Shown: positions 41,584 through 61,471, counted from the first letter of the stretch. The stretch: DNA of 64,000 nucleotides from Bacteroidota bacterium (GCA_019695345.1 JAIBAE010000009.1:1-64000), one strand, 5' to 3'. The notes: generated from the sequence alone by a model not told the origin. A program made the numbers and translations.

Positions 41584-44500
41584 ATGTGCATATTCAGGAT
41601 GAGTTCCGGTAGCAAAAAACGCATGACCCTTAAGAGGAAGTTAACAGCGTTACAGCAAATCTTGTGTGTAAGCATAACTGTTGCAGCAACAGTTACGGTA
41701 GTGTACGCAGGAAGTAGCGCTAATGGTACATCGGTTATTTCGCACAAAACATCTCGGCGCACAAGCAGAGATGCTTTTGCGTATGTTAATTCGATGTACG
41801 CACTTAAAACACTTGTCTGGCAATTACACCCATTCAGCTTAAATACAACGTATTTTTTCTTGCCCGAAGGCGATACAGTTGTACCCAAACGCACAAAATC
41901 TATTATCCCCACTCCGGTTATTGAGCGCGATAAAAATACATCTAAGTTTGATGCACCCCGATATGGCTTACCATCGGGTCTTGATATTTTGCGTACCATT
42001 GATAGCACAGGCGAGTATATAAAAACACAAGAGAGAATAGACGGTGTTGATGTAGGCATACCAAACAGCATAAAACTTGATGACTACTTGTTGCTGCGCC
42101 AACAGCAAATCAGCCGCTCGATGTGGGATTCGTTGATGACAAAGTACGACCTGAAAGCGGCTATGAGTGGCGATCAATTATCTAAGCTTATAAGCCAGGC
42201 AACTAACATTGCAATTCCGTTACCTCCTAACCCGCTTACCAGTATTTTTGGTAAACCCGAAATAAGTATTAACGTTAATGGCGAAGTAACGGTGCGTGGC
42301 GGTTGGCGTTGGGATTCGCAAAACCTTGGTGCATCAAGTGCTTTTGGTCAGTCGCAGTCGGCACCTGTATTTACACAGGATATTCAGATAAATGTTAGCG
42401 GACGTATTGGCGATAAATTAAAATTGGGTACCGATTGGAGTACACGCCGACAGTTTGAGTTTGATAACCGTTTTAAAATTGGGTATGACGGTTACGACGA
42501 TGATATTATAAAACGTATAGAACTTGGGAACGTACAACTACAAACACCGTCGTCGTTTATTCGTGGCTCTCAGGCGTTGTTTGGTGTAAGGGCTGATTTC
42601 CAGTTTGGCCCGTTGTTCTTAAAAACAATTGCATCGCAAAAACGCGGCGAGCAAAAGATAATAACAGTAAACGGTGGTTCATCGCGAACACGGTTTGTAT
42701 TGCGTGGATATGATTACGCGCAAAATCACTTCTTTCTGGATACTGCCTACAAAAGTTTGTACAGAGAATATTGGAAGTATTCAACACCACAAATACCTAC
42801 AACTGCACCGCAACTACGTGTAAAGGAAATTGTTGTTTATGAAAGTTCGGGTGATGTACGCGACCAAGCAGTTGGTGGTGTAGAAGTAATAGCATATGAT
42901 ACACTTTCACCAATTCAGTATGCAAATAACGAACGCTATCCAAATTCTATGAAAGTTGGTCAGTCGCTTTCCGGAAGGATTGAGCGTGGGCGTTTTATAA
43001 AATTAGATGAGACATCCGGACGTTTTACGTACGATAAAAATCTTGGTAAACTTGATATTATTAACATGCGACGCGATAGAACATACGCTGTTGCATACCG
43101 CACAGAAGGTGCAACCAATGCTAAGGAAGACGATTTATACACAGGTAGTTTAGTAAATAGTAAAGATAAGGATACTCTTATCCTGAAGTTGATATACCGC
43201 CCAAATATGCAGCCTGCATATACCAACTTGTGGGCACGTCAAATGAGAAATATCTATTTTATCAATGCAACGAACGTGAATACACAAGATGCAAAGATTA
43301 ACATCTACTATTTACGTACAAATAACGACTCGACCGATGTTCTGGAAGGCACACCTGATAAGATAGTAACCGGTTTACGTGTTGACCAAGTGAATAATGC
43401 AACCGGACAGCAACCCGGCGATGGTGTATTTGACTTTTCGGGTAGCGGCAGTACTGCCGGTTCGCAGGGAACAAGCACTACTTCCCAACAGAGTGTTGGG
43501 TATAGTGGAAGTCCGTTCTTTGATGCGCAACGCGGTGAAATAATTTTTCCTTCGCTTGAACCATTCCGCGAAGGTTTAGATACGGCCTTTGGGCGGCGAG
43601 GCATTCCGGCTACAGCAAAACAGTTTTATTATTCTTCAATCTATGATAATCAGGTTGAACTTGCCAAACAACAAACAGCGCAAGATAGATGGATAATTGT
43701 TGGTGATGTACAAGGGCAAAGTGCCGGGCGCATTCCGTTAGGATACAACATTGCCACCGGTAGTGTAAAGGTTAGATTAGACGGACGCGAACTTCGGGAG
43801 AACGATGACTTTACCGTAGAATATATAAGCGGTATGTTAACATTGCGTAACCCGCAAGCGCAGGTTCCCGGCGCTAATCTTTCTATTGAATACGAGTCCA
43901 ACGATATTATGAACGTAACCACAAAAACACTTGCCGGTATTCGCGCAGATGTTAATGTGTACAAAACAAGAAACTTCAACAGTAGTATTGGTGCAACGTA
44001 CATGTATTATAATCAGGCAATGTTGCTTGACCGTGTACGTATTGGCGAAGAGCCGGTTAGTAATGCTATGGCAGGTGTTGACGGACAAATGCAGTGGACT
44101 GCAAAATGGCTTACTGATGTTCTCGATGCCCTCCCCTTTTACGAAACAAAGGAGAAATCAACCATCAACTTACGTGGCGAGTGGGCACTGCAAATGCCAA
44201 CACCCAACAAACGTATTAGCGATGTTCCTACCGATAACGGGCAAGCAGTTGCATACATAGATGACTTTGAATCGGCACAACGAAGTATTTCGCTTGGGCT
44301 GTCGGCAACACAGTGGACGCATGCTGCGGTACCTGTTGACTCAACTATATCTCCCGATGATAGTATCCGCGGAACATATCGAGGCAAAAATTCCTGGTGG
44401 CAATATTTTATTGGGCGCATTCCAAGTACCGACCCATATCCAAACCGTCAGACTATTCAAGGTAGAAGTAATATATCGGGATTTTATATTGACTTCAATC

Positions 44501-47500
44501 CCGATTTGCGTGGGTTATATAATCATAACATAAACTTCTTGGATAGCTTAAGCCCCAAATGGGATTCAGTAAAAGTTGACCCTTGGGCGAAACGCCCGGA
44601 AAACAGAGAAAAGATTTGGGGTGGGTTCCAACGATTACTTTCATCATTTAACTCAAACTTCGATTTAGAAAATATTGACTACATCGAAATCATGATGCAG
44701 GTAGATCCAGCTACTGAACCAACTGCAAAAATGTATATTGACTTAGGACAGATTAGTGAAGACATTATTCCAAATCATACGTTAAATACCGAAGATGGTA
44801 TAACATCGGCTAATCCGGTTCCTAACGGACGGATAGACCCGGGCGAAGATTTAGGTATTGATGCACAGGCTAATGATAATGAAAAAATTGCATATCAATA
44901 TCCGTTAAACTTAGAAAGCGACCCTGCTCGTGATGATTATTCATTCGACTTCCAGAAAGATGCAAGTGCCCAAAGTGATCTTGATTTTGATAAGTACAAT
45001 AATTATGAAGGGAACTCAACTCAGTCTGAACTAGGGCAATTCCCGGATACAGAAATTTTGAACAAACAGAACGGACAGACAATAGCGCTTGATGATAGTT
45101 ACTTTAGCTACGAAGTTAACCTTGACCCAAGTGCAGGTAACCCGCAAGTTGTTGGTGGTGGTAATAATAACTGGCGATTGTATCGTATTCCATTACGTGG
45201 TGCCAAGAAAACAATAGGTAATCCTCTGTTCTCAAACATTCAATATGTACGTGTTTGGTTTAAGGGTGGAAGACTAAAAGCAACAATTGTTGATTGGCGT
45301 TTTGCAGGTGCGCAATGGCAACGTATTAATTATGCAGCTGTGGCAAATAGCGCAGAAGTAACAGATAACACACTTCGTGTTTCATTTGTAAATAGAGAGG
45401 AACACTACGGTCCGCCCGATTACTATACGATGCCTCCGGGTGTACAAGCTCCGCGTAACCTTGCCAATTCCGATTACAATAGCGACATTCGGTTAAATGA
45501 GCAATCGTTGGTAGTTGGTGTAGATAACCTAAACTGCGGCGAAGAGCGTGCAGCAACACGCTTCTTCCGTACATTCGATATGTTCTATTACAAGTCACTA
45601 AAGTTCTTTGTAAAAGGTATTGGTGGTCAGGATTTCATTCCACCCGATTCGCTCTCGTTAACACCGGCAGATACAACCTTACCTCAATTCTATGTTCGCT
45701 TTGGTACCGATAGTGCAAACTATTACGAGTATCGTGCTCCTATTGTCCGCGAATGGAAGAACGTTGCTATTGACCTTGAAAAACTTACTGCTATAAAACA
45801 AAGGCGCGATTCGCTTGGTCAGTTTACACGAATGGTGTTTGGTGTAGAAAACGAACCACTTGCACGATATGCTATTCTTGGTAATCCTGTTTTAACCCGA
45901 GTTCAATATGTGTCGTTTGGTATTGCAAATCCACGCGAGCGATGCCCCAAAGGATTAAGCACAACAGTATGGATAGACGAACTCCGCTTACTTGACCCGC
46001 TATCGGATAATGATTGGGCAGGAACTGGTGCGTTAGATATTAAACTTGCCGACCTTGGTAACTTCAGGATGGCGTACACACAACTGAACCCTAATTTCCA
46101 CCGGTTAGAAGAACGCTTTGGGAATCGGGAAACTACGCGCGAATTTTCAGCAACATTTGATGCAGGGTTTGAGAAGTTCTTACCAAAGTCGTGGAAAGAT
46201 ACACGTATTCCATTTTCATTCTCGCGCATCACTCGCGAACGAGACCCACAATTTCAGGCACAAAACGATGTAAACATTGAAGCTGCCGCCGCTGTTGCAT
46301 ATAATCAGGCATTGGCAAATGGTGAATCTGAAACACAGGCAACAGATAGAGCAGATTATGTTCGCAGACGTTCGCGTACACGGTGGGCACAAACATCATT
46401 TGGTATTACGGGCTTCAAATTCGGTTTGCCGTCAAACGAATGGTATATCCGCGAAACCATTAACCGTCTTGCGTTAGCATTTACGTATTTCCAGGAAGCA
46501 GAGCAATCACCCGTTGTACAAGAACGTTTTCTGTGGCGTTGGGATTTCTCGGCGCAGTATTCGGTAAATATTCCGGCAATTGCAAGTGTACGGTTAGGCG
46601 GAATCTTTGGAAGTATTCCGTTGATTAAAGAGTACAAAGACTGGAAGATTAACTTTTTACCACAAACACTTTCATTAAGTACTAAGTTTACCCGTTCACG
46701 CAGAACTGAACAATCGTGGTTTCTTCAGTTCCCTACTCCGCCCGAGCGTCACTTCGATGCAACAAACTCCATGAGTTTACAATGGAAATTAGCCGAAGGC
46801 GGACTGCTCTCGCCAACGTTAGATTACAACATGGTACAAGGTAGCACATTGGTGCCATTAGAACTTGATTCGCTTGGTAATCAGTTAACAGGTTCTGATG
46901 TTATGCGCAAAGTGTTATTTACAAACAACAAGTTTATAGACTTCGGAACGCCTAACAATCTATCACAAAATGTAGTAATTAACTTCCGTCCTAAGTTACC
47001 CGATTTTGGTGGTATCAATAAGTACTTCGATGCAAATGGCTCGTTTACCACAAACTATTCGTGGTTCGACCCCATGCAACGCGACCCCGCGTTATCGGAT
47101 GTTGCTAAACAGGTACGCACTACCAATAACATTCGTATAACCTCTAATCTGCGTTTACGCCAAATGACGAATGCATGGTTTGGGATAACACCGCCAAGCA
47201 CCTCTGCTAAACCGGATACAACAAAATCCAGTTCTTTATTTGCCGATATCGCAGATTTATTCCGTTCGTTGATATTCGATTACGAATCCTTTAATATAAA
47301 TTTTACCCAAGGGAACACTGCTAACACACCTGGTGTATTTGGTGGTACAGGGTTCTCTAACTTTTGGGGACGCGGTGCAACATTCCGTGCCAGCGAAAAC
47401 TTCTTAGGACCTTCGGCAGCATATCAATTAGGGTTAGTTCGATATCCGCATGGCTCGTATCGTATTACATCGTCAAGTAAGTTCCCGTTCTTCGGCTTCG

Positions 47501-48612
47501 AGGAAGATTACGGATTACGTCCGCCGAATGCACAGTTACAAGATAACTTTACACAACGCACAAATCTCGAAATGCGCACATCGCGTCCATTGTGGAAGAA
47601 TGCAACGTTAGATTTAAACTGGCGTACAGAGTTTAGCAACAACCGCAATCAGTTAACAACAACCGATGCACAAGGTAACATGACGTTTACTAATGTTATC
47701 TTAACAGAGCAATACAACAGAACATTTTTAACAATGCCGGATTTCTTTTTATTATCGGTATTCAACAATACGCCAGAGAACGTTATCAATCGTTACCGTA
47801 CTGCAAAGAAAGATATCATTGGTAACAAAAACGAAGATTCGCTTTCTATTGATGACCAAATCAAAGTACAAAATGCAATGACCGATGCCTTTATAGGTGG
47901 GCTTCAAGCATTCGAGGCATTCCCCGGAGCGTTGTTACGGTTCTTGCCTGCACTAAACTGGTCGTTCCGTTGGGAAGGTATAGAAAAATATTGGTTCTTT
48001 GGTGGTATTGCCCAACGTGTATCACTCGAACACAATTATCAATCATCATACACCGAAAACGCACGTGTAAACGATAACGGACGCACTGTGGATGCGCAAA
48101 CAGTACAGATGGCATTTCAGCCATTGGTAGGTGTAACCTTTACGTTCGACGAAAAACAAGTAAAAGGAAATCTAACAGGTAATCTGCGCTATAACACACG
48201 TACAAATTATGCATTAGCAGCAGCAGCGCGTACACTCTCGCGCGATATACAAAAAGAGTTCTCGCTCAATGCAACCTATACAATACGTGGGTTTCAATTT
48301 GCTGTACTTGGTATAGACTTAAAGAATGATGTTGAATTTAGTTTCTTATCAACATATCGCCGCACATCGCGCAGTACCTACACACTTAGCGAAGTTCAGC
48401 AATCGCAACAGCAAGGTACAAACGGAAGCGAGCTTGACGGACAAACAAGTATAACTATCGAGCCACGTGCGCGCTACACTGTAAGTAATCGTGTAACTGC
48501 ATCCGCATTCTTCCGCTACGATGGCAACTTTAGCACAGGCGCATCAAACCCCGGTTACAGCACAACGCAGGTAGGCTTAGAAGTTCGCCTTGCAATATCC
48601 GGTGGCAGATAA
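41584..48612 (+). CDS. sprA: SprA/Sov, outer-membrane translocon of the type IX secretion system
   Basis: This 2342-residue protein is the giant beta-barrel through which T9SS cargo leaves the cell. After a short basic N-terminus and hydrophobic signal (about 20-42), the family's conserved stretches follow: PPNPLTSIFGKPEISINVNGEVTVRGGW near 216, IGDKLKLGTDWSTRRQFEFDNRFKIGYDGYDDDIIKRIELGNVQLQTPSSFIRGSQALFGVRADFQFG near 274-340, VAYIDDFESAQRSISLG near 893, and NNIRITSNLRLRQMTNAWFG near 1844. The C-terminus ends with barrel strands. The length is within the family range (about 2000-2500). An ATG five codons later could also start it. Two exported proteins downstream carry matching sorting domains. 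Confidence 0.95.
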   Translation: MCIFRMSSGSKKRMTLKRKLTALQQILCVSITVAATVTVVYAGSSANGTSVISHKTSRRTSRDAFAYVNSMYALKTLVWQLHPFSLNTTYFFLPEGDTVVPKRTKSIIPTPVIERDKNTSKFDAPRYGLPSGLDILRTIDSTGEYIKTQERIDGVDVGIPNSIKLDDYLLLRQQQISRSMWDSLMTKYDLKAAMSGDQLSKLISQATNIAIPLPPNPLTSIFGKPEISINVNGEVTVRGGWRWDSQNLGASSAFGQSQSAPVFTQDIQINVSGRIGDKLKLGTDWSTRRQFEFDNRFKIGYDGYDDDIIKRIELGNVQLQTPSSFIRGSQALFGVRADFQFGPLFLKTIASQKRGEQKIITVNGGSSRTRFVLRGYDYAQNHFFLDTAYKSLYREYWKYSTPQIPTTAPQLRVKEIVVYESSGDVRDQAVGGVEVIAYDTLSPIQYANNERYPNSMKVGQSLSGRIERGRFIKLDETSGRFTYDKNLGKLDIINMRRDRTYAVAYRTEGATNAKEDDLYTGSLVNSKDKDTLILKLIYRPNMQPAYTNLWARQMRNIYFINATNVNTQDAKINIYYLRTNNDSTDVLEGTPDKIVTGLRVDQVNNATGQQPGDGVFDFSGSGSTAGSQGTSTTSQQSVGYSGSPFFDAQRGEIIFPSLEPFREGLDTAFGRRGIPATAKQFYYSSIYDNQVELAKQQTAQDRWIIVGDVQGQSAGRIPLGYNIATGSVKVRLDGRELRENDDFTVEYISGMLTLRNPQAQVPGANLSIEYESNDIMNVTTKTLAGIRADVNVYKTRNFNSSIGATYMYYNQAMLLDRVRIGEEPVSNAMAGVDGQMQWTAKWLTDVLDALPFYETKEKSTINLRGEWALQMPTPNKRISDVPTDNGQAVAYIDDFESAQRSISLGLSATQWTHAAVPVDSTISPDDSIRGTYRGKNSWWQYFIGRIPSTDPYPNRQTIQGRSNISGFYIDFNPDLRGLYNHNINFLDSLSPKWDSVKVDPWAKRPENREKIWGGFQRLLSSFNSNFDLENIDYIEIMMQVDPATEPTAKMYIDLGQISEDIIPNHTLNTEDGITSANPVPNGRIDPGEDLGIDAQANDNEKIAYQYPLNLESDPARDDYSFDFQKDASAQSDLDFDKYNNYEGNSTQSELGQFPDTEILNKQNGQTIALDDSYFSYEVNLDPSAGNPQVVGGGNNNWRLYRIPLRGAKKTIGNPLFSNIQYVRVWFKGGRLKATIVDWRFAGAQWQRINYAAVANSAEVTDNTLRVSFVNREEHYGPPDYYTMPPGVQAPRNLANSDYNSDIRLNEQSLVVGVDNLNCGEERAATRFFRTFDMFYYKSLKFFVKGIGGQDFIPPDSLSLTPADTTLPQFYVRFGTDSANYYEYRAPIVREWKNVAIDLEKLTAIKQRRDSLGQFTRMVFGVENEPLARYAILGNPVLTRVQYVSFGIANPRERCPKGLSTTVWIDELRLLDPLSDNDWAGTGALDIKLADLGNFRMAYTQLNPNFHRLEERFGNRETTREFSATFDAGFEKFLPKSWKDTRIPFSFSRITRERDPQFQAQNDVNIEAAAAVAYNQALANGESETQATDRADYVRRRSRTRWAQTSFGITGFKFGLPSNEWYIRETINRLALAFTYFQEAEQSPVVQERFLWRWDFSAQYSVNIPAIASVRLGGIFGSIPLIKEYKDWKINFLPQTLSLSTKFTRSRRTEQSWFLQFPTPPERHFDATNSMSLQWKLAEGGLLSPTLDYNMVQGSTLVPLELDSLGNQLTGSDVMRKVLFTNNKFIDFGTPNNLSQNVVINFRPKLPDFGGINKYFDANGSFTTNYSWFDPMQRDPALSDVAKQVRTTNNIRITSNLRLRQMTNAWFGITPPSTSAKPDTTKSSSLFADIADLFRSLIFDYESFNINFTQGNTANTPGVFGGTGFSNFWGRGATFRASENFLGPSAAYQLGLVRYPHGSYRITSSSKFPFFGFEEDYGLRPPNAQLQDNFTQRTNLEMRTSRPLWKNATLDLNWRTEFSNNRNQLTTTDAQGNMTFTNVILTEQYNRTFLTMPDFFLLSVFNNTPENVINRYRTAKKDIIGNKNEDSLSIDDQIKVQNAMTDAFIGGLQAFEAFPGALLRFLPALNWSFRWEGIEKYWFFGGIAQRVSLEHNYQSSYTENARVNDNGRTVDAQTVQMAFQPLVGVTFTFDEKQVKGNLTGNLRYNTRTNYALAAAARTLSRDIQKEFSLNATYTIRGFQFAVLGIDLKNDVEFSFLSTYRRTSRSTYTLSEVQQSQQQGTNGSELDGQTSITIEPRARYTVSNRVTASAFFRYDGNFSTGASNPGYSTTQVGLEVRLAISGGR

Positions 48613-50533: not shown

Positions 50534-52144
50534 TTATACATGCTTTCTGGTTTGTAATAATTCTTTAGCAGCACGATTCCCTTGATAAAATGCTTCTTCG
50601 AACAAAGATAAGCCACTTAAATCGGAATGGGCAAAGAATATCTTATTATCAATTGGAGCTTTGAGTTTTTCGAGGTGTGTATTTGCGTAAAATCCTACAA
50701 CAGGTGCTATCATACCATGTCCCCACAGAACGGCATCTACATATTCAGTTTCTGAAATAATTCCGGGGTGAACAGATTCAAGTTCCTGCGCCACCTGATT
50801 AACAATTTCTTCTGTGGTACTATGTAGTAGTTGTTTTCTTCCTTCTTGAGGTGCTTGTTTATGGAGAGTGGTATACCAAGTTATTACTGTTTTATTGTTG
50901 TGTGTAGTTAACAACTGTTGGGTATCATTTATATAGCCAAGGCTGTTAGCCCCATATAGTACATTATCCCAATGCACATCACTCAGTATTCCTGAAGTAT
51001 CATTAAGAATAAGAGTTACAACTAACCATGGAGCATACTTAAAATTTTGTGTCCATTGTGTTCTTTCCGGTTGGATGGTTGATAACAAACGTGTAGTAAT
51101 AAACTGCGGCGTTGCAATGATGCACTGTTTAGCATGTAGGATTTTTGAATTATTGCTATCATTTATTACAGCAACCTTTACCTTGGCATTGTGTATCTCA
51201 ATGTTGTATGCAAGGGTATCACAGATTAGGTTTTGCGTAACATCTGTACGTAGAATGTCTACAAGATGTCCGTTGCCGTTAGGCCAAGTAAGGTTGGTAT
51301 CTTCGGGTGCATTCGCCGACTTAGCTCTGCGTGCCACAAAGTATTGAATTCCTGCAAATGCACTTATAGACTCAATACCCATTCCGTATTCATCTCTGCA
51401 ACAATAATCAGCATACCATATCACTTCATCTTCTGTAATTAGATTGTTTTTCAGAAAATCAGCAAACGAAATTCCATCAAGTTCCAAGGATATATCATTT
51501 GTATATCCGTTACATATTGGTAATGCAAAAATGTATTCTCCATTGTCGTTTTTTAGATTTTCGTAGTTGTGTAACAGTTGAACAAATTTATTATATCCCG
51601 CGGGTGAGAATTTTGCTATTGTTGATGCAATTCCATCCCGCCATTTACCACGATAATACAACCTTTCCTGCGGTGCAAAGCAAAGGTCGTTTTCGTTGTA
51701 TACAGGTAGTTCATTTTCAAACCCGGTAATAATATTATGTTCGGATAAGAACTCTATAAGTTCTTTATTATGTAATTCTGCAATAGGAAGATAGTGCGCT
51801 CCATATGGGTAACGATAAGTATTCCGTTTGCCACTTGATGCATTCCCGCCAATGTGATGGTTGACTTCAATTATAGCAACATTGTCAATTCCTTGCCTAC
51901 GTAAATAGCGCGCTGCCGATAATCCCGCAACTCCGCTACCAATTACAATTGTATCATATGTTTCACCTTCACGCTCAGGTAATGGTAGATTTCCAGTTTT
52001 AAGTTTGTGCCCAAGTTTATGAGCAGAAGATATTATGTGAGTAGTGGCTGTTTGCTCTTGTCTTTTACAGGAATTTACTAAGGTTGTACCAAGTGCTGAA
52101 GTGATGCACAGAGAAAGTGATGATAAAAAAGTACGTCTATCCAT
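50534..52144 (-). CDS. FAD-dependent amine oxidase-like protein (polyamine operon, last gene)
   Basis: A 536-residue flavoprotein. MDRRTFLSSLSLCITSALGTTLVNSC looks like a short, RR-type export signal with a lipobox-like Cys. FAD binding is through TIVIGSGVAGLSAARYLRR near 65 followed by the acidic E and GGNASSG. The C-terminus carries KIFFAHSDLSGLSLFEEAFYQGNRAAKELL, the family's second FAD contact. It belongs to the flavin monoamine oxidase/desaturase superfamily. As the last gene after an aminopropyltransferase, a polyamine or polyamine adduct is a sensible substrate, but this is an inference. It starts 3 bp after the previous gene. Confidence 0.8.
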   Translation of the reverse strand: MDRRTFLSSLSLCITSALGTTLVNSCKRQEQTATTHIISSAHKLGHKLKTGNLPLPEREGETYDTIVIGSGVAGLSAARYLRRQGIDNVAIIEVNHHIGGNASSGKRNTYRYPYGAHYLPIAELHNKELIEFLSEHNIITGFENELPVYNENDLCFAPQERLYYRGKWRDGIASTIAKFSPAGYNKFVQLLHNYENLKNDNGEYIFALPICNGYTNDISLELDGISFADFLKNNLITEDEVIWYADYCCRDEYGMGIESISAFAGIQYFVARRAKSANAPEDTNLTWPNGNGHLVDILRTDVTQNLICDTLAYNIEIHNAKVKVAVINDSNNSKILHAKQCIIATPQFITTRLLSTIQPERTQWTQNFKYAPWLVVTLILNDTSGILSDVHWDNVLYGANSLGYINDTQQLLTTHNNKTVITWYTTLHKQAPQEGRKQLLHSTTEEIVNQVAQELESVHPGIISETEYVDAVLWGHGMIAPVVGFYANTHLEKLKAPIDNKIFFAHSDLSGLSLFEEAFYQGNRAAKELLQTRKHV

Positions 52145-52147
52145 ATG

Positions 52148-53656
52148 TTAGTGCAGGTATTCAGACCATTCTTGTTCAAAATATTGTACTAAGATTTGGT
52201 TGTTCAGTTTGTTAATATTAACAGTGTTTGTCTTCATATCCGGTGCAAAGTTTAACATTTGCTGAAATATGGTAGGTGTAAAGTATAACAAAGAGTCCGG
52301 CAGTCTTTCTGAGTGGAACAAATCTGGAATAGCTGAGGGCGAAGCAAGTATATATCCCCATTCACCAAACGATGGAATAAAGGTATGATAAGGTTTTGTA
52401 TTAAAACCGGCACTTTGTAGAGTGGCATTTACGCACCAAAATGACTTTGGAGCAACTAAAGGAGATGTAGACTGAACAACTACGATGGTTGAATCATGAG
52501 TTACTTTTTTCATAGTTCTGTAAAACATATCAGTATATAATTTCCCAACAGAATAATTAGAGGGATCCGGAAAGTCCACAATAATAATATCATACTTCCC
52601 AATATGCGAGCGTAACCAAACAAATGCATCATCATTAACTATCTTTACATGGTTAGACTGCAAAGATTTTTTGTTGAGCTTGGCTAACAGCGGATTTGTT
52701 GAAAAGAGATTAGTCATGTAGTAATCCAGATCAACAAGAGTAATATCTTTAACAGATGGATACTTTAGTATTTCCCTTGCTGCTAAGCCATCACCTCCAC
52801 CAAGAACCAGTACATGTTTGGGATTAGATGGGTACAAGCACATTAGCGGGTGAACAAGCGATTCGTGGTATCGATACTCATCGTTAGTATTAAACTGAAG
52901 ATTCCCATTTAGATATAATTTAAATGCTTTATTAGACCTTGTTAGTATTATGCGTTGATACGGAGAGGATACAGAATAAATTATATTCTCACCCAATGCG
53001 TCAGTTTCAGCCAGATTTGTAATGCTGTCAGAATATAATATCCCCATAAAAAGGAACAAAAAAACAATAATAGATTGTAGTGCCAGTGAGCGCACAAAAC
53101 GAAGTTCGTTGCGTACAACATAACATAAAACCAGGGCTACACTTACATTCATACAACCAAAAAAGAACGAGGTTCTGACAAGTCCTAGATATGGAACCAT
53201 AACCAACGGAAAGATTATGGATGCCAGTAATGCACCGGCGTAATCGTACGAAAAAACTCTGGAAATTAAATTTTGGAATTCAATCTGCTTTTTTAGGATA
53301 TTCATAAGTAAAGGTATTTCCAGTCCTACTAAAATACCAGTGCATGAAACTATAAGATACAAGACAATTCTAAATGAATCTATATGAGGAAATAGAATAA
53401 ACAGAAGAGCTGAACTTGTTCCTCCTACAATACCAACTAATATTTCTGTTTGAATAAAAACATCTAACAGATTCTGCTTAATGAAACGCGACAAATAAGA
53501 TCCTATCCCCATGCAAAACAGATAAGCACCAATAATAGTAGAGAACTGTGTAACTGAGTCTCCTAGTAAGTAACTGGCTAAAGTACCTGCAGCTAATTCG
53601 TATACAAGTCCGCATGTTGCGATTATACTTACAGAAAGCAATAAGAGAAGTTGCAT
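52148..53656 (-). CDS. Membrane-anchored spermidine synthase-like aminopropyltransferase
   Basis: A 502-residue fusion. Residues 1-215 form about seven transmembrane helices. Residues about 240-500 are a spermidine synthase-like domain: YRYHESLVHPLM near 261, VLVLGGGDGLAAREI near 282 (SAM-type binding loop), TLVDLDYYM, NDDAFVWL, and the catalytic IIIVDFPDPSNYSVGKLYTDMFYR near 359. The conserved residues of aminopropyl transfer are mostly present, and the membrane anchor suggests a substrate in or near the membrane. It is preceded by a DUF350 gene (2-bp gap) and followed by the flavin oxidase. Confidence 0.87.
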   Translation of the reverse strand: MQLLLLLSVSIIATCGLVYELAAGTLASYLLGDSVTQFSTIIGAYLFCMGIGSYLSRFIKQNLLDVFIQTEILVGIVGGTSSALLFILFPHIDSFRIVLYLIVSCTGILVGLEIPLLMNILKKQIEFQNLISRVFSYDYAGALLASIIFPLVMVPYLGLVRTSFFFGCMNVSVALVLCYVVRNELRFVRSLALQSIIVFLFLFMGILYSDSITNLAETDALGENIIYSVSSPYQRIILTRSNKAFKLYLNGNLQFNTNDEYRYHESLVHPLMCLYPSNPKHVLVLGGGDGLAAREILKYPSVKDITLVDLDYYMTNLFSTNPLLAKLNKKSLQSNHVKIVNDDAFVWLRSHIGKYDIIIVDFPDPSNYSVGKLYTDMFYRTMKKVTHDSTIVVVQSTSPLVAPKSFWCVNATLQSAGFNTKPYHTFIPSFGEWGYILASPSAIPDLFHSERLPDSLLYFTPTIFQQMLNFAPDMKTNTVNINKLNNQILVQYFEQEWSEYLH

Positions 53657-53658
53657 AA

Positions 53659-53874
53659 TTAGTGTATTGCTGATGCTATAATTATTGCTATTGCTATAAC
53701 ATATGCACCAGCTACTATTGCTATTGCTGTATTGCGTTTATCAATCAGCTCAAGCCAAATATTTTGCGGTGTAATTTTCTCTACGATTATAAAACTGATG
53801 ATAAGTATGAGCATACCTAAAAATGTATATACAACCGAGCCTACGATGTACTTAAGTTGCAAAACGTCTTCCAT
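53659..53874 (-). CDS. DUF350 (YjfL-like) small membrane protein
   Basis: A 71-residue protein of two hydrophobic helices: IVGSVVYTFLGMLILIISFIIV and AIAIVAGAYVIAIAIIIASAI, joined by a loop with TPQNIW and DKRNTAIAI. The NxAxAI/G-x-Y-x-G-type pattern is that of DUF350, whose members are small inner-membrane proteins of unknown function. I recall DUF350 genes near SpeD, spermidine synthase and amidoligase-like genes in other bacteria; this is recollection, not a search. Confidence 0.8.
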   Translation of the reverse strand: MEDVLQLKYIVGSVVYTFLGMLILIISFIIVEKITPQNIWLELIDKRNTAIAIVAGAYVIAIAIIIASAIH

Positions 53875-53886
53875 ATCATGTGTCCT

Positions 53887-54102
53887 TTATTTGTGATAGT
53901 ATCTGTTAGGTTGACCTGAATGGTGTTCTTCTGAGCTAAAACTGAGCATTCTGAGTCCGTAATACTGTGAGTACGAATACCACATTATTATGATAGTAGC
54001 CGGTATTACGAATATCCATATTCTCCTAAAAGAAATGTTCCCGAGTTTACCCGGTGAAAGTTCACTCTTGAATTTTTCAATAATGTGTTCTTGTTTAGTC
54101 AT
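53887..54102 (-). CDS. Small single-pass membrane protein, unknown
   Basis: A 71-residue protein: a polar N-terminus (MTKQEHIIEKFKSELSPGK), one transmembrane helix (IWIFVIPATIIIMWYSY, about 28-44) and a polar His/Ser-rich C-terminus. No family is recognised. Its ATG overlaps the end of the DUF4178 gene by 8 bp and the DUF350 gene starts 12 bp after it, so it is probably a real member of the operon. Confidence 0.65.
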   Translation of the reverse strand: MTKQEHIIEKFKSELSPGKLGNISFRRIWIFVIPATIIIMWYSYSQYYGLRMLSFSSEEHHSGQPNRYYHK

Positions 54103-55339
54103 CGTTGTTCTCGTTGTAACTTATAGGAGGTTGATAAAACGCTATATAATATATCAAACCAATTGCAGCCAAACATACTATAATACTAACAACAACATTT
54201 CTCCAATGACTACGAGATGCCCACACTGATAACATCAGCGGTGCTGAAGTAGAATCGCAGTACGTTTGGGCTTCAATATGATATACACCTTTAGGAACGT
54301 TTTCAAAGTAAAGTTCGGAATGAGAATTGTCTTCAATCCAAGCCCCATCTTCATCAAAACCTGTGTAGTATTCACATGCAACAACACCCGTGCGTTGTTC
54401 ACCTGTCGTGTGGTTAACAAGCGTTATTTCACCTTCAGTCCATGCTTGAACAACATTACTGTATGCATCCACCCTAAGTAACGAGTGCTCAGATGTAAGT
54501 GCAAAAGATCGGAATTCACTTTCTGCGGGTTGTTGTGGGGCAGCATACGAGTCAATGTAATAATCAGACTGAAATCCAAAGCTAATCAGATGTACAAGAA
54601 ATAACGCTATACTTAGAAATACATATCCTAACATTACAAATTTTCCATTCCAATCAAATCTTCCCGGGCGGGCGTGATAAGGACCTGAAGGCAAAGGTAA
54701 AAATACTTTTGTAAGCCCAATACTTTTTTTGAATTCATATCTATAAAGGTATTTACCTATAAAGTACTCGTTTTCTTTGTCGGCGTTTTCTCTAATAGCA
54801 ACAAACGGTGGTGCTGAATATTCATAGTAGCGTTTACTAGTATCTTCTAGGACATTATAATTAAATGCACCAACAACAACATCAATTTGAATCTTATATC
54901 CAAATCCATTGGTGAAGTAAGTGTTGCCAAAATACAACTTCATGCCTCGAAGTCGGGTATCGGTATTATTGATTTGTATTGTAAAAACTGTATGACCAGA
55001 ATATTCGATGAGAAATGCGTATTCTTTATTTTCCGATTGTAAACAATACTCAATCCAACGCTCAACCTCACCAACTTCATGTTTAATCACATAGCCAATA
55101 AATGTATATCTAACAGACTCATAAGTAAATACTGTACCTAACGGTATGATGGTATATTTATATTTATTCAAAAACTTGGATAGTGTTCCGACTTTGTGGC
55201 TGTCCTGATTATCTTGGTTAGATTGATTGAAAATATTTCCACAGTTTCCACATCCAAAAACTTCAAACATCCGACCGGAGTAATCTTCTAATGAAGTTCC
55301 GCAGTTTGGGCATGTTAACGATATTGGTGTGGTACTCAT
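54095..55339 (-). CDS. DUF4178 membrane protein with N-terminal zinc ribbon
   Basis: This 414-residue protein starts with a zinc ribbon, CPNCG (10-14) and CGNCG (30-34). The DUF4178 domain follows (about 60-200), with IPLGTVFTYESVRYTFIGYVIK near 65. A transmembrane helix near 236-258, a beta-rich middle domain and a second helix near 385-405 complete it. DUF4178 proteins have no established activity. It lies 23 bp after speD and overlaps the next small gene, which marks it as part of the same operon. Confidence 0.8.
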   Translation of the reverse strand: MSTTPISLTCPNCGTSLEDYSGRMFEVFGCGNCGNIFNQSNQDNQDSHKVGTLSKFLNKYKYTIIPLGTVFTYESVRYTFIGYVIKHEVGEVERWIEYCLQSENKEYAFLIEYSGHTVFTIQINNTDTRLRGMKLYFGNTYFTNGFGYKIQIDVVVGAFNYNVLEDTSKRYYEYSAPPFVAIRENADKENEYFIGKYLYRYEFKKSIGLTKVFLPLPSGPYHARPGRFDWNGKFVMLGYVFLSIALFLVHLISFGFQSDYYIDSYAAPQQPAESEFRSFALTSEHSLLRVDAYSNVVQAWTEGEITLVNHTTGEQRTGVVACEYYTGFDEDGAWIEDNSHSELYFENVPKGVYHIEAQTYCDSTSAPLMLSVWASRSHWRNVVVSIIVCLAAIGLIYYIAFYQPPISYNENNDD

Positions 55340-55362
55340 TACATTTTAAAACATATCATCTT

Positions 55363-55710
55363 TCAACGTTCAATAAATTGAACATTTACCGATGTTGGAT
55401 TAAAAAAATTTCTAGTATTGATATACAGTTGCTGTGTAATCTGGGAGTTATCCTTACTGTAATTGGATAGATAAATATCGAATGCTACATAATGTATTTC
55501 GGGATATGTATGTATTGATAAATGAGATTCGGTTAAACAGATTACAGCAGTAAACCCGCCGTTATGAAAATCATGATAGACATCTCCTACAGATTGTAGA
55601 GAAAGTTCTTGGATTAATGGAAGTATAAATGATTTCCATTGCTTGTGAGCTTTGAGAAGTGTAGTATCCGGAACCGTAAAGCCCGCTATTATGTGCAAAC
55701 CTGTTACCAA
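55363..55710 (-). CDS. speD: SpeD-family pyruvoyl decarboxylase (AdoMetDC-like)
   Basis: A 115-residue protein, the size of bacterial class 1B SpeD. The self-cleavage motif E61-S62-H-L-S-I-H67-T-Y-P-E is intact, so a pyruvoyl group should form at Ser62. The region after it reads HYVAFDIYLSNYS, where AdoMet decarboxylases usually have VDIFTCG, so the catalytic cysteine position seems to be Ser82. SpeD relatives with changed sites and other substrates (arginine, ornithine) are known. The product is either decarboxylated SAM for the aminopropyltransferase in the same operon, or another amine. It is the first gene of the operon. Confidence 0.85.
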   Translation of the reverse strand: MVTGLHIIAGFTVPDTTLLKAHKQWKSFILPLIQELSLQSVGDVYHDFHNGGFTAVICLTESHLSIHTYPEIHYVAFDIYLSNYSKDNSQITQQLYINTRNFFNPTSVNVQFIER

Positions 55711-58342: not shown

Positions 58343-61300
58343 CTACCTCAAAATCATTACCGGCACAGAGCGCTGTGTATTTTGCATTGTAACACGAAGC
58401 ATGTATGCGCCATCGGGACATTGAGAAACAGGTACATCAACATGTGGTTGCAATGGTGATATCTCTGTTTGAATTGTTGAGATGCTGTTGCCAAGAACAT
58501 CAAACAACGTAACTGTTACAGGTATCTGGCGTTCCGTTGGTATTGTTACCGTAAGTTGTGTTGAAGCCGGATTCGGCGCACATTGTATTAGTTGTTGTTT
58601 CACAAATTGCTCTTCCTCTACTGCTACCGGGCGTTGGCCTTGCGTGTAGAACACAGGATACTCGGCATCGGTTGCAAGTACAATGGCATCTGTTCCTAAC
58701 GGACTGATTTTATCGGTTTTGAGTTGTAATATTTTTGCAACAGGTTGATTGTTTGTATTGTACGAGGTAAAGGCGATACGGTTATCGTTTTTACCATAAC
58801 TTGGTGTACCCAAGCGGCTGTTTAATGTTATTACGGCACCATCGGATGTTTCGGTATTCATACCAATAATTGCATAGCGGTCGTTATTGGAATCGAACAT
58901 ATCAAATGCAATAATATTTGGCGAATTCTTTGAGAACGTTGGGTTGCCAACATCTATACCTTGGTCTAAGGTAGGTATGAGATTTAGCACTAAGCCATCG
59001 GAGAATTTTTTACCTGCTACATCAAATGCGCGAAGCATGCCTATGTTCCAATATTCAAGTGTATCGCCTTGGTTGTTGCTTACACTGTTAAAGGCATCAA
59101 ACAGCACAAACTGTCCGGAGAAATCCCACTCAACAGCGTCGGCAAATTGGATTGTGTAATTGCGCACACCACTTCCGGTAGTTGGCGTGTATAAATAAAA
59201 CCGTTGGATTGCCACCGGAGTTACTGCCAGATTATACACCCAGATAGAAGAATCAACCTCTGTAGATACAACTGCCAATCTGTTGCCATCACGCGATACC
59301 GCTACGTTTTCCCACACCGTGCTGGTGCTTAATATACTTTCCTGCGGCGATGTTGTGTTTAATGTAATTGCATGAAGCGTGTTATCGGCTGCTACAAACA
59401 CTGCAACTGAGCCATCATCTACCACACTTGGGCGGCGGTTAACTTTGGTTTTAGAGATTGGATGAAAATCGGATGTTTGTGGATTATCCGGTTTTACAAT
59501 GTATAGCGAATTTGGGTCTGATTGGAAATCGGTGTTATGGAGTAAAATCCATTCGGTACCATTAACAGGTGATTGATCTTTGGGTCCGGTTGAACCGGAG
59601 CCATCGGTTATACCAACAGCGTCAAATGCGTTTCCGGCCGCAGTAACTTCGGAAGTTCCGTACAACTCTTGCGCACTGCGTATAACTGCTCTGCGTAAAT
59701 CAATAAACTGCGAACTTTTTGTTAAGTAGCTTGTAAGTGTGCGGTAATATATTTTTTCTGTTTTTTCTTTGCCAATTGCTTGTGCTAATAAAAAACATGC
59801 TCTGTTTGGGATGCCGCTATTAACATGTACCCCACCATTATCGCCATCTTGTGTTTCGGGAAGTTTTTGATATTCATTCATGTGTGCCGGTTGCCACCCA
59901 CGGTCGTTTAACGAATTGCCACCATTGTGCGGGTTTTCCATATTGCGTAAAGCACCGGTTGGAAATGCTGATGTGCGTACAACATCTTCACCAATTAACC
60001 AATCGTCTCTATCAACCATACAACCAAATACATCAGACATCGACTCGTTGATTGCACCGGACTGGCTAAGATATACTAATGCAGCACTATTTTCGGTAAC
60101 GCCATGTGTCATTTCGTGTGCGGCTACATCCAAACCGCCTGCTAATGGTTTAAAGGCCTGTAAGCCATCGCCGTAAGCCATAAGCTTGCCATTCCAAAAA
60201 GCATTATCCATACCCTGCCCACCTTCGGTAACATGAATTACCGATACAATTGTACCACCGTTACCATCAATAGAATTGCGTGCGTGTACTTGTCTGAAAT
60301 ATTCATACGTTGTAGCACCGTTAGAATGTGCCGATACCGAAGAACGGTCGCTCCAGGAATTCGTTGTTGTTGTTACATTGAAAATATCCTGTAAGTCGGT
60401 TTGTTTGGAATCTAACGTCCAGATTGTTCCAACAGTTTTGTTTGGAAACTGTGATTGCGTGTTGTTAAACATCGGGCGCGATGCATCAATCAACCAGTAG
60501 TTATTCTGGAATTGATAGGTGTTGATAGTTTTGGTAGAACTATTCAAATCCGGTGCCTGTGCAGTTTTAGGTCCATCGGGGCAAGAGTTAGAATACGTAA
60601 ACAATACCTTGCCCGATTTTGCATCAATAAAACACTCCCAACGGCTAACAAGGTTAGGGCGAACTGTAATATGCCATGCTAACGATGGTGGCATACCAAC
60701 CGTGCGCGATGGAAATATCACCAATTCTCTTTGCGGTTGGGTGTAATCTAACAATGTCTGTGCCGTAGCACTTAGCTCATGGATTCTATCAACTGTATTT
60801 ACTTTATCTAATGCAAAATCAACAGCACGTTCGCCTGTAATTTCCGGAACAGTTACATAATTAGCATCAAGCGATGCCACGGTGCGTCCGTTGTATGTTT
60901 CAACTGTTCCATCGGTATTAAAGTGAACAACAGCATCACATCCCCACACAGGAATCTCGTTGTACTGTTGTTGTAAACGTACGTGCGTTTTACCAAGAGC
61001 ATCACGTTCTACCGATGTAACTGCAAACTCTTGGTTTGGGTTCTCTATAGTAAGCACAGGTGCAATACGTTGCAGAAAGTCCTGCGTAGCAGAAACAACC
61101 TGATTGTTGGTTGTAAGCGCATAAGCACGCGAAAGCTTTTGCCCTTGAACAAAAAACGGAATCTTGCTTGTTGCATCAAAATAGAATTCCGGTTTTTGTG
61201 CAGATGGAAACATTGCGTACAGTGCTTCGCGCTGCCTTGCAGAAAGCTGCTCGGTAGTAATATTATGTATAACTGGTGCTGTGGCAAACGAGTACACAGT

Positions 61301-61471
61301 TTTAGGAACAGCCGGCGCAACAGCCAATATAGATGTAGCTACGTGCTTGCGTCCCTTTGCCTGGGTAAACGGATTTTTACGTACGGGAGTTGTTTGTTGT
61401 GTGTATGCAGTTAGCGTGGAAAGAAATAATGCACAAACGGTGCACAATGCTACATACGGATTCTTCTTCAT
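58343..61471 (-). CDS. M4-family (thermolysin-like) metallopeptidase with T9SS sorting domain
   Basis: A 1042-residue secreted zealous zinc protease of thermolysin type. After the signal peptide (1-25) come an FTP/PepSY propeptide (about 60-290), the peptidase domain with H452-E453-M-T-H456 and the third ligand E476 in GAINESMSD, and H549 in VHVNSGIPNRA as the transition-state histidine. Residues about 640-945 form a TolB/WD40-like beta-propeller. The last 85 residues (LIQCAPNPASTQLTVTIP ... GAYMLRVTMQ) are a T9SS sorting domain. A perfect SD (GGAGG) precedes the ATG. It is probably processed and released or anchored on the cell surface. Confidence 0.92.
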   Translation of the reverse strand: MKKNPYVALCTVCALFLSTLTAYTQQTTPVRKNPFTQAKGRKHVATSILAVAPAVPKTVYSFATAPVIHNITTEQLSARQREALYAMFPSAQKPEFYFDATSKIPFFVQGQKLSRAYALTTNNQVVSATQDFLQRIAPVLTIENPNQEFAVTSVERDALGKTHVRLQQQYNEIPVWGCDAVVHFNTDGTVETYNGRTVASLDANYVTVPEITGERAVDFALDKVNTVDRIHELSATAQTLLDYTQPQRELVIFPSRTVGMPPSLAWHITVRPNLVSRWECFIDAKSGKVLFTYSNSCPDGPKTAQAPDLNSSTKTINTYQFQNNYWLIDASRPMFNNTQSQFPNKTVGTIWTLDSKQTDLQDIFNVTTTTNSWSDRSSVSAHSNGATTYEYFRQVHARNSIDGNGGTIVSVIHVTEGGQGMDNAFWNGKLMAYGDGLQAFKPLAGGLDVAAHEMTHGVTENSAALVYLSQSGAINESMSDVFGCMVDRDDWLIGEDVVRTSAFPTGALRNMENPHNGGNSLNDRGWQPAHMNEYQKLPETQDGDNGGVHVNSGIPNRACFLLAQAIGKEKTEKIYYRTLTSYLTKSSQFIDLRRAVIRSAQELYGTSEVTAAGNAFDAVGITDGSGSTGPKDQSPVNGTEWILLHNTDFQSDPNSLYIVKPDNPQTSDFHPISKTKVNRRPSVVDDGSVAVFVAADNTLHAITLNTTSPQESILSTSTVWENVAVSRDGNRLAVVSTEVDSSIWVYNLAVTPVAIQRFYLYTPTTGSGVRNYTIQFADAVEWDFSGQFVLFDAFNSVSNNQGDTLEYWNIGMLRAFDVAGKKFSDGLVLNLIPTLDQGIDVGNPTFSKNSPNIIAFDMFDSNNDRYAIIGMNTETSDGAVITLNSRLGTPSYGKNDNRIAFTSYNTNNQPVAKILQLKTDKISPLGTDAIVLATDAEYPVFYTQGQRPVAVEEEQFVKQQLIQCAPNPASTQLTVTIPTERQIPVTVTLFDVLGNSISTIQTEISPLQPHVDVPVSQCPDGAYMLRVTMQNTQRSVPVMILR

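Follow-up and report, generated by a model that had tools for sequence, protein, structure and literature searches.

Operons that join DUF350, DUF4178 and a spermidine synthase fused to seven transmembrane (TM) helices were described by Ravi et al. (2024, PMC11237479), who proposed that they sense polyamines or serve in 'aminopropylation of other substrates'. Group 2 of these operons is linked to PspA and CesT (e.g. AAN56744.1), and a variant with S-adenosylmethionine (AdoMet) decarboxylase and polyamine oxidase exists; the portion of the paper's text that was searched does not mention a C-terminal lysine. Two other systems are pertinent: the YjfC/YgiC peptide–spermidine ligases (Pederick 2023, cited in PMC12270671), and the silaffins of diatoms, which carry aminopropyl units on peptide lysine side chains and in which fusions of AdoMet decarboxylase (AdoMetDC) and aminopropyltransferase are implicated (PMC3820600). 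Here we analyze a six-gene operon at positions 50534-55710 of a 64,000-nucleotide (nt) stretch of DNA from a Bacteroidota bacterium (GCA_019695345.1 JAIBAE010000009.1:1-64000). This whole stretch is referred to as the window, and coordinates are counted from its first letter.

Read along the minus strand, the six open reading frames (ORFs) encode SpeD, DUF4178 protein, small TM protein, DUF350 protein, membrane aminopropyltransferase (APT) and flavin adenine dinucleotide (FAD) amine oxidase, with intergenic gaps of 23, -8, 12, 2 and 3 nt; protein families were assigned with Pfam and NCBIfam. An earlier note on this DNA had read these genes as one operon, and their order and coordinates are confirmed. 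The earlier note also claimed that the operon places a polyamine-like group on a lipid, peptide or membrane protein instead of making free spermidine, by a chemistry not yet described. The claim to novelty falls, as the operon class is published and aminopropylation of other substrates was proposed with it (Ravi 2024, PMC11237479). The claim about the product probably stands, with a membrane protein (the product of the small TM ORF) as the target and not a lipid. What had not been foreseen is a conserved terminal lysine, which points to a specific acceptor within the operon itself. We put the chances at somewhat better than even that the operon is a protein-modifying system in which SpeD provides decarboxylated AdoMet (dcAdoMet), the APT aminopropylates the terminal lysine of a membrane-anchored tail, and the oxidase edits the result.

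A conserved C-terminal lysine in the small TM protein

Relatives of the membrane APT were collected by scanning genome contigs with an alignment as the query, which returned 544 sequences, and 80 loci with flanks were retained; the same scan with one sequence as the query gave no match, unlike the alignment. Thirteen further loci were added through oxidase relatives in the phylum. The gene set and order are seen again in about 70 loci from several phyla. Near the APT in about 100 loci, SpeD was found in 65, DUF350 in 73-75 and the oxidase in 74, and thus the arrangement is not a matter of chance. DUF4178 homologues recur in the related loci as well.

The small protein (53887-54102, minus strand) has 71 amino acids (aa) and a single TM segment, matches nothing in Pfam or NCBIfam, and ends in RYYHK; it is the proposed aminopropyl acceptor. 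The codons CAC AAA TAA at 53887-53895 encode the final His-Lys (HK) and the stop, and this lysine is the proposed site of modification. The sequences of the small proteins diverge among loci, and the last two residues are nearly always HK. For a blind count, the most hydrophobic ORF in the gap between DUF4178 and DUF350 was picked in 72 loci, disregarding its ending. Lysine was the terminal residue in 68 of the 72, and HK the ending in 65; the four misses include three loci (L075, L089 and L232) with an HK ORF in another frame. Such endings are not a general property of ORFs in the vicinity: none of 3245 other small same-strand ORFs ends in HK, and 46 of 976 other TM-like small ORFs end in lysine. 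Nor are they shared by the other operon families, where terminal lysine occurs in 0/74 oxidases, 0/101 APTs, 0/75 DUF350 proteins, 6/106 DUF4178 proteins and 1/65 SpeDs. The codons vary across loci, with CAC or CAT for histidine, AAA or AAG for lysine, and TAA, TAG or TGA as the stop. The flank N-terminal to the TM segment is on average more positive than the C-terminal one (+1.3 versus 0), which suggests that the tail is probably outside.

In the literature searched (Li 2019, Pederick 2023 and Iyer 2009 lie outside it), there is no report of a C-terminal lysine linked to DUF350. Against that literature, it is new that a small, overlooked protein ends almost invariably in lysine, and that this residue switches with the type of enzyme in the operon.

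Terminal residue and operon enzyme

Terminal lysine is also found on proteins of other families. Nine lipoproteins of a family that is not homologous to the small TM protein, encoded in sister operons with DUF350 and the membrane APT, all end in GK. Outside both BLAST clusters, lysine ends the tails at L173 (NRVK), L177 (ESGK) and L211, a single protein made up of DUF4178, TM segment and tail (RGFGK). Proteins with such endings include a 510-aa Alteromonas protein (SSGK), a 78-aa TM protein from Ensifer (ESGK), a 64-aa ORF from Tritonibacter (NRVK) and the Novosphingobium sp. ES2-1 protein WP_193828724.1 (GPSHK).

The picture differs in DUF350 operons that have an ATP-grasp protein (GSP_synth, PF03738) in place of the APT. 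Their tails resemble those of the APT operons in R/S/G/F composition but end in GG, SS, FS, SL or GS, with lysine in none of nine. In Escherichia coli, YjfM and YgiB both end in GG, and the adjoining genes are annotated as peptide–spermidine ligase. The terminal residue would thus suit the enzyme: lysine supplies the amine that an APT requires, and glycine the carboxylate that a ligase requires. Seven Bacteroidota loci (L212, L214, L216, L218, L219, L240 and L241) combine an eight-TM (8TM) DUF350, a divergent GSP_synth ATP-grasp protein and a membrane protein of 459-497 aa, whose RSG-rich tail is without a terminal lysine.

Another potential user of the terminal lysine is the FAD amine oxidase (50534-52144, minus strand; PF01593, Amino_oxidase, 59 bits). 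It could act on the lysine in the manner of lysyl oxidase or LSD1, with the APT acting elsewhere, for example on a membrane lipid amine. The protein is a probable lipoprotein with predicted export by the twin-arginine translocation (Tat) pathway (N-terminus DRRTFLSS..., lipobox VNSC); most homologues have twin-arginine N-termini, often plus a lipobox. The closest folds in the PDB are monoamine oxidases A and B, spermidine dehydrogenase and putrescine oxidase, and the oxidase and HK genes occur together in 63 of 73 loci. Predicted export, fold and co-occurrence would all suit an oxidase that takes lysine as its substrate. However, lysine tails persist in APT operons read without an oxidase gene (L048, L049, L173, L177 and L235-L238), so that the lysine tracks the APT and not the oxidase, and we regard this alternative as quite unlikely.

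The membrane aminopropyltransferase and its proposed acceptor

The APT (52148-53656, minus strand) matches Spermine_synth with 123 bits and NF002956 ('polyamine aminopropyltransferase') with 629 bits. Its AlphaFold2 model (pLDDT 93) shows seven N-terminal TM helices followed by the APT domain with a spermidine-synthase fold, in agreement with the membrane anchoring that the earlier note had claimed, and the closest PDB folds are thermospermine and spermidine synthases. The catalytic residues are invariant in 47 sequences (Q234, GGGDG and D361-x-P-D364-P), and the residues of the acceptor site are similar to those used for linear amines. The literature searched, with Li 2019 outside it, gives no answer as to the target of bacterial membrane-fused aminopropyltransferases.

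Because the APT carries a seven-helix membrane domain and its partners are all membrane proteins, the acceptor might be a membrane lipid such as phosphatidylethanolamine, with the tail serving as an assembly factor. Yet the cluster holds no lipid enzyme or lipid-binding domain, the acceptor site is akin to those for linear amines, and the exchange of lysine for glycine with the type of enzyme would go unexplained. A lipid acceptor is accordingly given very little weight.

Intact spermidine-synthase residues could also belong to an enzyme whose product at the membrane is free spermidine or some other unattached polyamine. The lysine-tailed protein would then be structural or regulatory, its HK docking to the enzyme or to DUF350. 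The host genome (assembly of 4.56 Mb, 99.9% complete), searched family by family, offers some support: its only SpeD and only aminopropyltransferase are both in the operon, and no NspC scores above the cut-off. Other polyamine genes are present, so the absence of such genes that the earlier note named as a refutation is not seen here: there are a 640-aa PF02784 protein of the size of an arginine decarboxylase and three arginase-family genes, and these could provide agmatine or putrescine. On the other side, according to a 2025 paper (PMC12803844, the position as of December 2025), Li 2019 showed that membrane-APT fusions of bacteria have no part in making spermidine or spermine. In addition, relatives G014, G022 and G029 carry NspC alongside a membrane APT, which in G029 is a fragment at the end of a contig; this implies a separate spermidine route there. 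Free polyamine synthesis also leaves unexplained why tails end in lysine with an APT and in glycine or serine with an ATP-grasp ligase. We therefore disfavor reading the locus as only a spermidine operon, and consider free polyamine as the product, with a docking HK tail, to be improbable.

Proposed mechanism and points against it

In the mechanism that we favor, SpeD would provide dcAdoMet, and the membrane APT would use it as donor of the 3-aminopropyl group that is joined to the small protein's C-terminal lysine at its side-chain amine. The acceptor tail, flexible, rich in Gly, Ser and Asn and ending in -HK, may mimic the amine end of a diamine for the enzyme. The product would be a tail anchored in the membrane whose tip is cationic and polyamine-like; the exported oxidase probably trims or oxidizes this tip. 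DUF350, DUF4178 and, elsewhere, SPFH/SHOCT or PspA partners might form a membrane assembly on which the tip acts, probably in control of envelope stress. Aminopropylation would add 57.058 Da per group to the acceptor. To our knowledge there is no bacterial precedent for aminopropylated lysine.

How far this extends is a matter of even odds in our view: a widespread bacterial modification may exist in which encoded C-terminal lysines on membrane-anchored tails are aminopropylated, the amine-side counterpart of C-terminal spermidine ligation of the YjfC/YgiC type, with the last residue of the tail (Lys, or Gly/Ser) fitting the chemistry of the operon enzyme.

Several observations weigh against lysine aminopropylation. 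The locus L230, which has DUF350, DUF4178, APT and SpeD, is a true exception without a candidate lysine tail. At the nucleotide level, AAATAGGAG in some high-GC loci may overlap the ribosome-binding site of the next gene, and this could contribute to conservation of the lysine codon. The conserved C-terminus could also be a docking motif instead of a modification site. Topology poses a further difficulty. The charge bias in 96 homologues places the loops following TM2, TM4 and TM6 of the APT inside; on this sequence-based prediction the APT domain would lie outside the cytoplasm, or else the prediction is wrong. If the domain is outside, dcAdoMet would have to cross the membrane. Finally, about 18 loci have solo membrane-APT genes without DUF350, and these show no HK-type small ORF; in such loci the APT may use a different acceptor. 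The solo loci from Dechloromonas and relatives (L131, L136, L140-L142, L145-L149, L154-L156 and L158-L161) are without DUF350, DUF4178, the oxidase and the small HK protein.

SpeD itself adds one more point to this list. The 115-aa protein (55363-55710, minus strand) is a pyruvoyl enzyme similar to class 1b AdoMetDC (PF02675, AdoMet_dc, 71.8 bits). Against TIGR03330 it scores 67.2 bits, with the cut-off at 75.65. Its start codon is uncertain and is probably the TTG at 55710. The motif ESHLSIHTYPE keeps the pyruvoyl serine and the proline of HTxPE, whereas serine takes the place of the catalytic AdoMetDC cysteine, as it does in many homologues from Bacteroidota. SpeD might then be no AdoMetDC but a neofunctionalized arginine or ornithine decarboxylase, or an inactive scaffold. 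Neofunctionalization of this type is on record, and a proline of the region distinguishes AdoMetDC from arginine decarboxylase (PMC10407285). By our reading, this discriminating proline would correspond to the one in the H-T-x-P-E motif, which is present; moreover, proteobacterial operon SpeDs retain the catalytic cysteine. We assign a small chance to these alternatives, and continue with SpeD as the putative source of dcAdoMet for lysine aminopropylation. The replacement of DxFTCG by DxxLSN is seen in the window SpeD and in about 20 Bacteroidota loci.

Gene order and neighboring features

The usual order in Bacteroidota is SpeD, DUF4178, small ORF, DUF350, APT, oxidase and a polytopic protein (about 355 aa). 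Most proteobacterial loci run SPFH-SHOCT, DUF4178, DUF4178, small ORF, DUF350, APT and oxidase, with SpeD last. The record titles name Bacteroidota, Alpha- and Betaproteobacteria, Verrucomicrobia, Nitrospirae, Oligoflexia, Pirellula, Vampirovibrio and Archangium. The polytopic membrane protein, typically 340-390 aa (at most 511) and without a Pfam match, is 3' of the oxidase in most of 32 loci (e.g. L094:4372-5451, plus strand); a search of the window's genome with a 352-aa member, made without a positive control, gave no match. An SPFH/Band-7 protein with a C-terminal SHOCT lies upstream of DUF4178 in 24, mostly proteobacterial, loci (e.g. L134:4529-5545, plus strand).

The DUF4178 protein of the window (54095-55339, minus strand; PF13785, 28.9 bits) has an N-terminal zinc-ribbon-like pair of CxxC motifs with a weak zinc-ribbon match, the DUF4178 domain and two hydrophobic segments; related loci contain 106 homologous ORFs. 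The DUF350 protein (53659-53874, minus strand; PF03994, 46 bits) is a YjfL-like short form of 71 aa. In 53 of 75 loci the short form has -HG as its last residues, a second conserved C-terminus among the operon proteins; the window protein ends in IH. In L230, DUF350 starts with a signal-peptide-like extension.

Four long ORFs were inspected as possible fusions (L116, L128, L151 and L080, from a set with oxidases of 975/1027 aa and APTs of 623-625 aa). Three proved to be 5' read-through of open frames and were rejected; in L080, the sole real fusion, DUF4178 is joined to a third hydrophobic segment and to a tail whose last residues are SGSHK. In three genomes that belong to the same order (L045, L046 and L047), a SpeD-aminopropyltransferase fusion of 445 aa is followed by an arginase-like gene. 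On an Alteromonas mediterranea megaplasmid (L174:7944-14602), the membrane APT, SpeD, a 'toxic anion resistance' protein, DUF4178, a lysine-ended protein and DUF350 are clustered.

Elsewhere in the window, inspection by eye found a SprA-like protein of 2342 aa (41584-48612) and a thermolysin-like protease that ends in a sorting-type domain (58343-61471), which may point to type IX secretion.

Comparison with known systems

The window operon shares with group 2 of Ravi et al. a DUF350, a DUF4178 and a spermidine-synthase domain on an N-terminal 7TM region, but departs from it in several respects. Its six genes include no CesT/Tir-PspA dyad by Pfam, and a linkage to PspA/CesT is rejected because PspA is on another contig (C144). 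There is no lipoprotein of the Ctha_1186 type; the L049 lipoprotein has no homologue in the window's genome, and the small HK protein is in its place. The DUF350 is the short form and not the 8TM form, and the operon adds the HK-ending TM protein, SpeD and the Tat-exported FAD oxidase. Compared with SpeE and its partner SpeD, the APT has the same catalytic fold and dcAdoMet chemistry, but it carries seven N-terminal TM helices and belongs to a class reported not to make spermidine.

The modification proposed here, if it occurs, would be chemically akin to that of diatom silaffins, with aminopropyl groups on lysine side chains. Silaffins differ in being eukaryotic, in being modified at internal lysines and in serving silica formation, with no known role for DUF350, DUF4178 or an oxidase.

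The E. coli operons yjfIJKLMC and ygiBC (DUF350, DUF1190, YjfC/YgiC) resemble the window operon in pairing a tail protein, with an R/S/G-rich tail, with a polyamine enzyme, and the yjf operon also contains a DUF350 (YjfL). The differences lie in the enzyme and the end of the tail: the window has an APT and no ATP-grasp GSP_synth ligase among its six genes, and its tail ends in YYHK, offering an amine, whereas the E. coli tails end in GG, offering a carboxylate. If lysine aminopropylation is correct, these two types of DUF350 operon would be unified, each producing a polyamine-like tip on a membrane-anchored tail.

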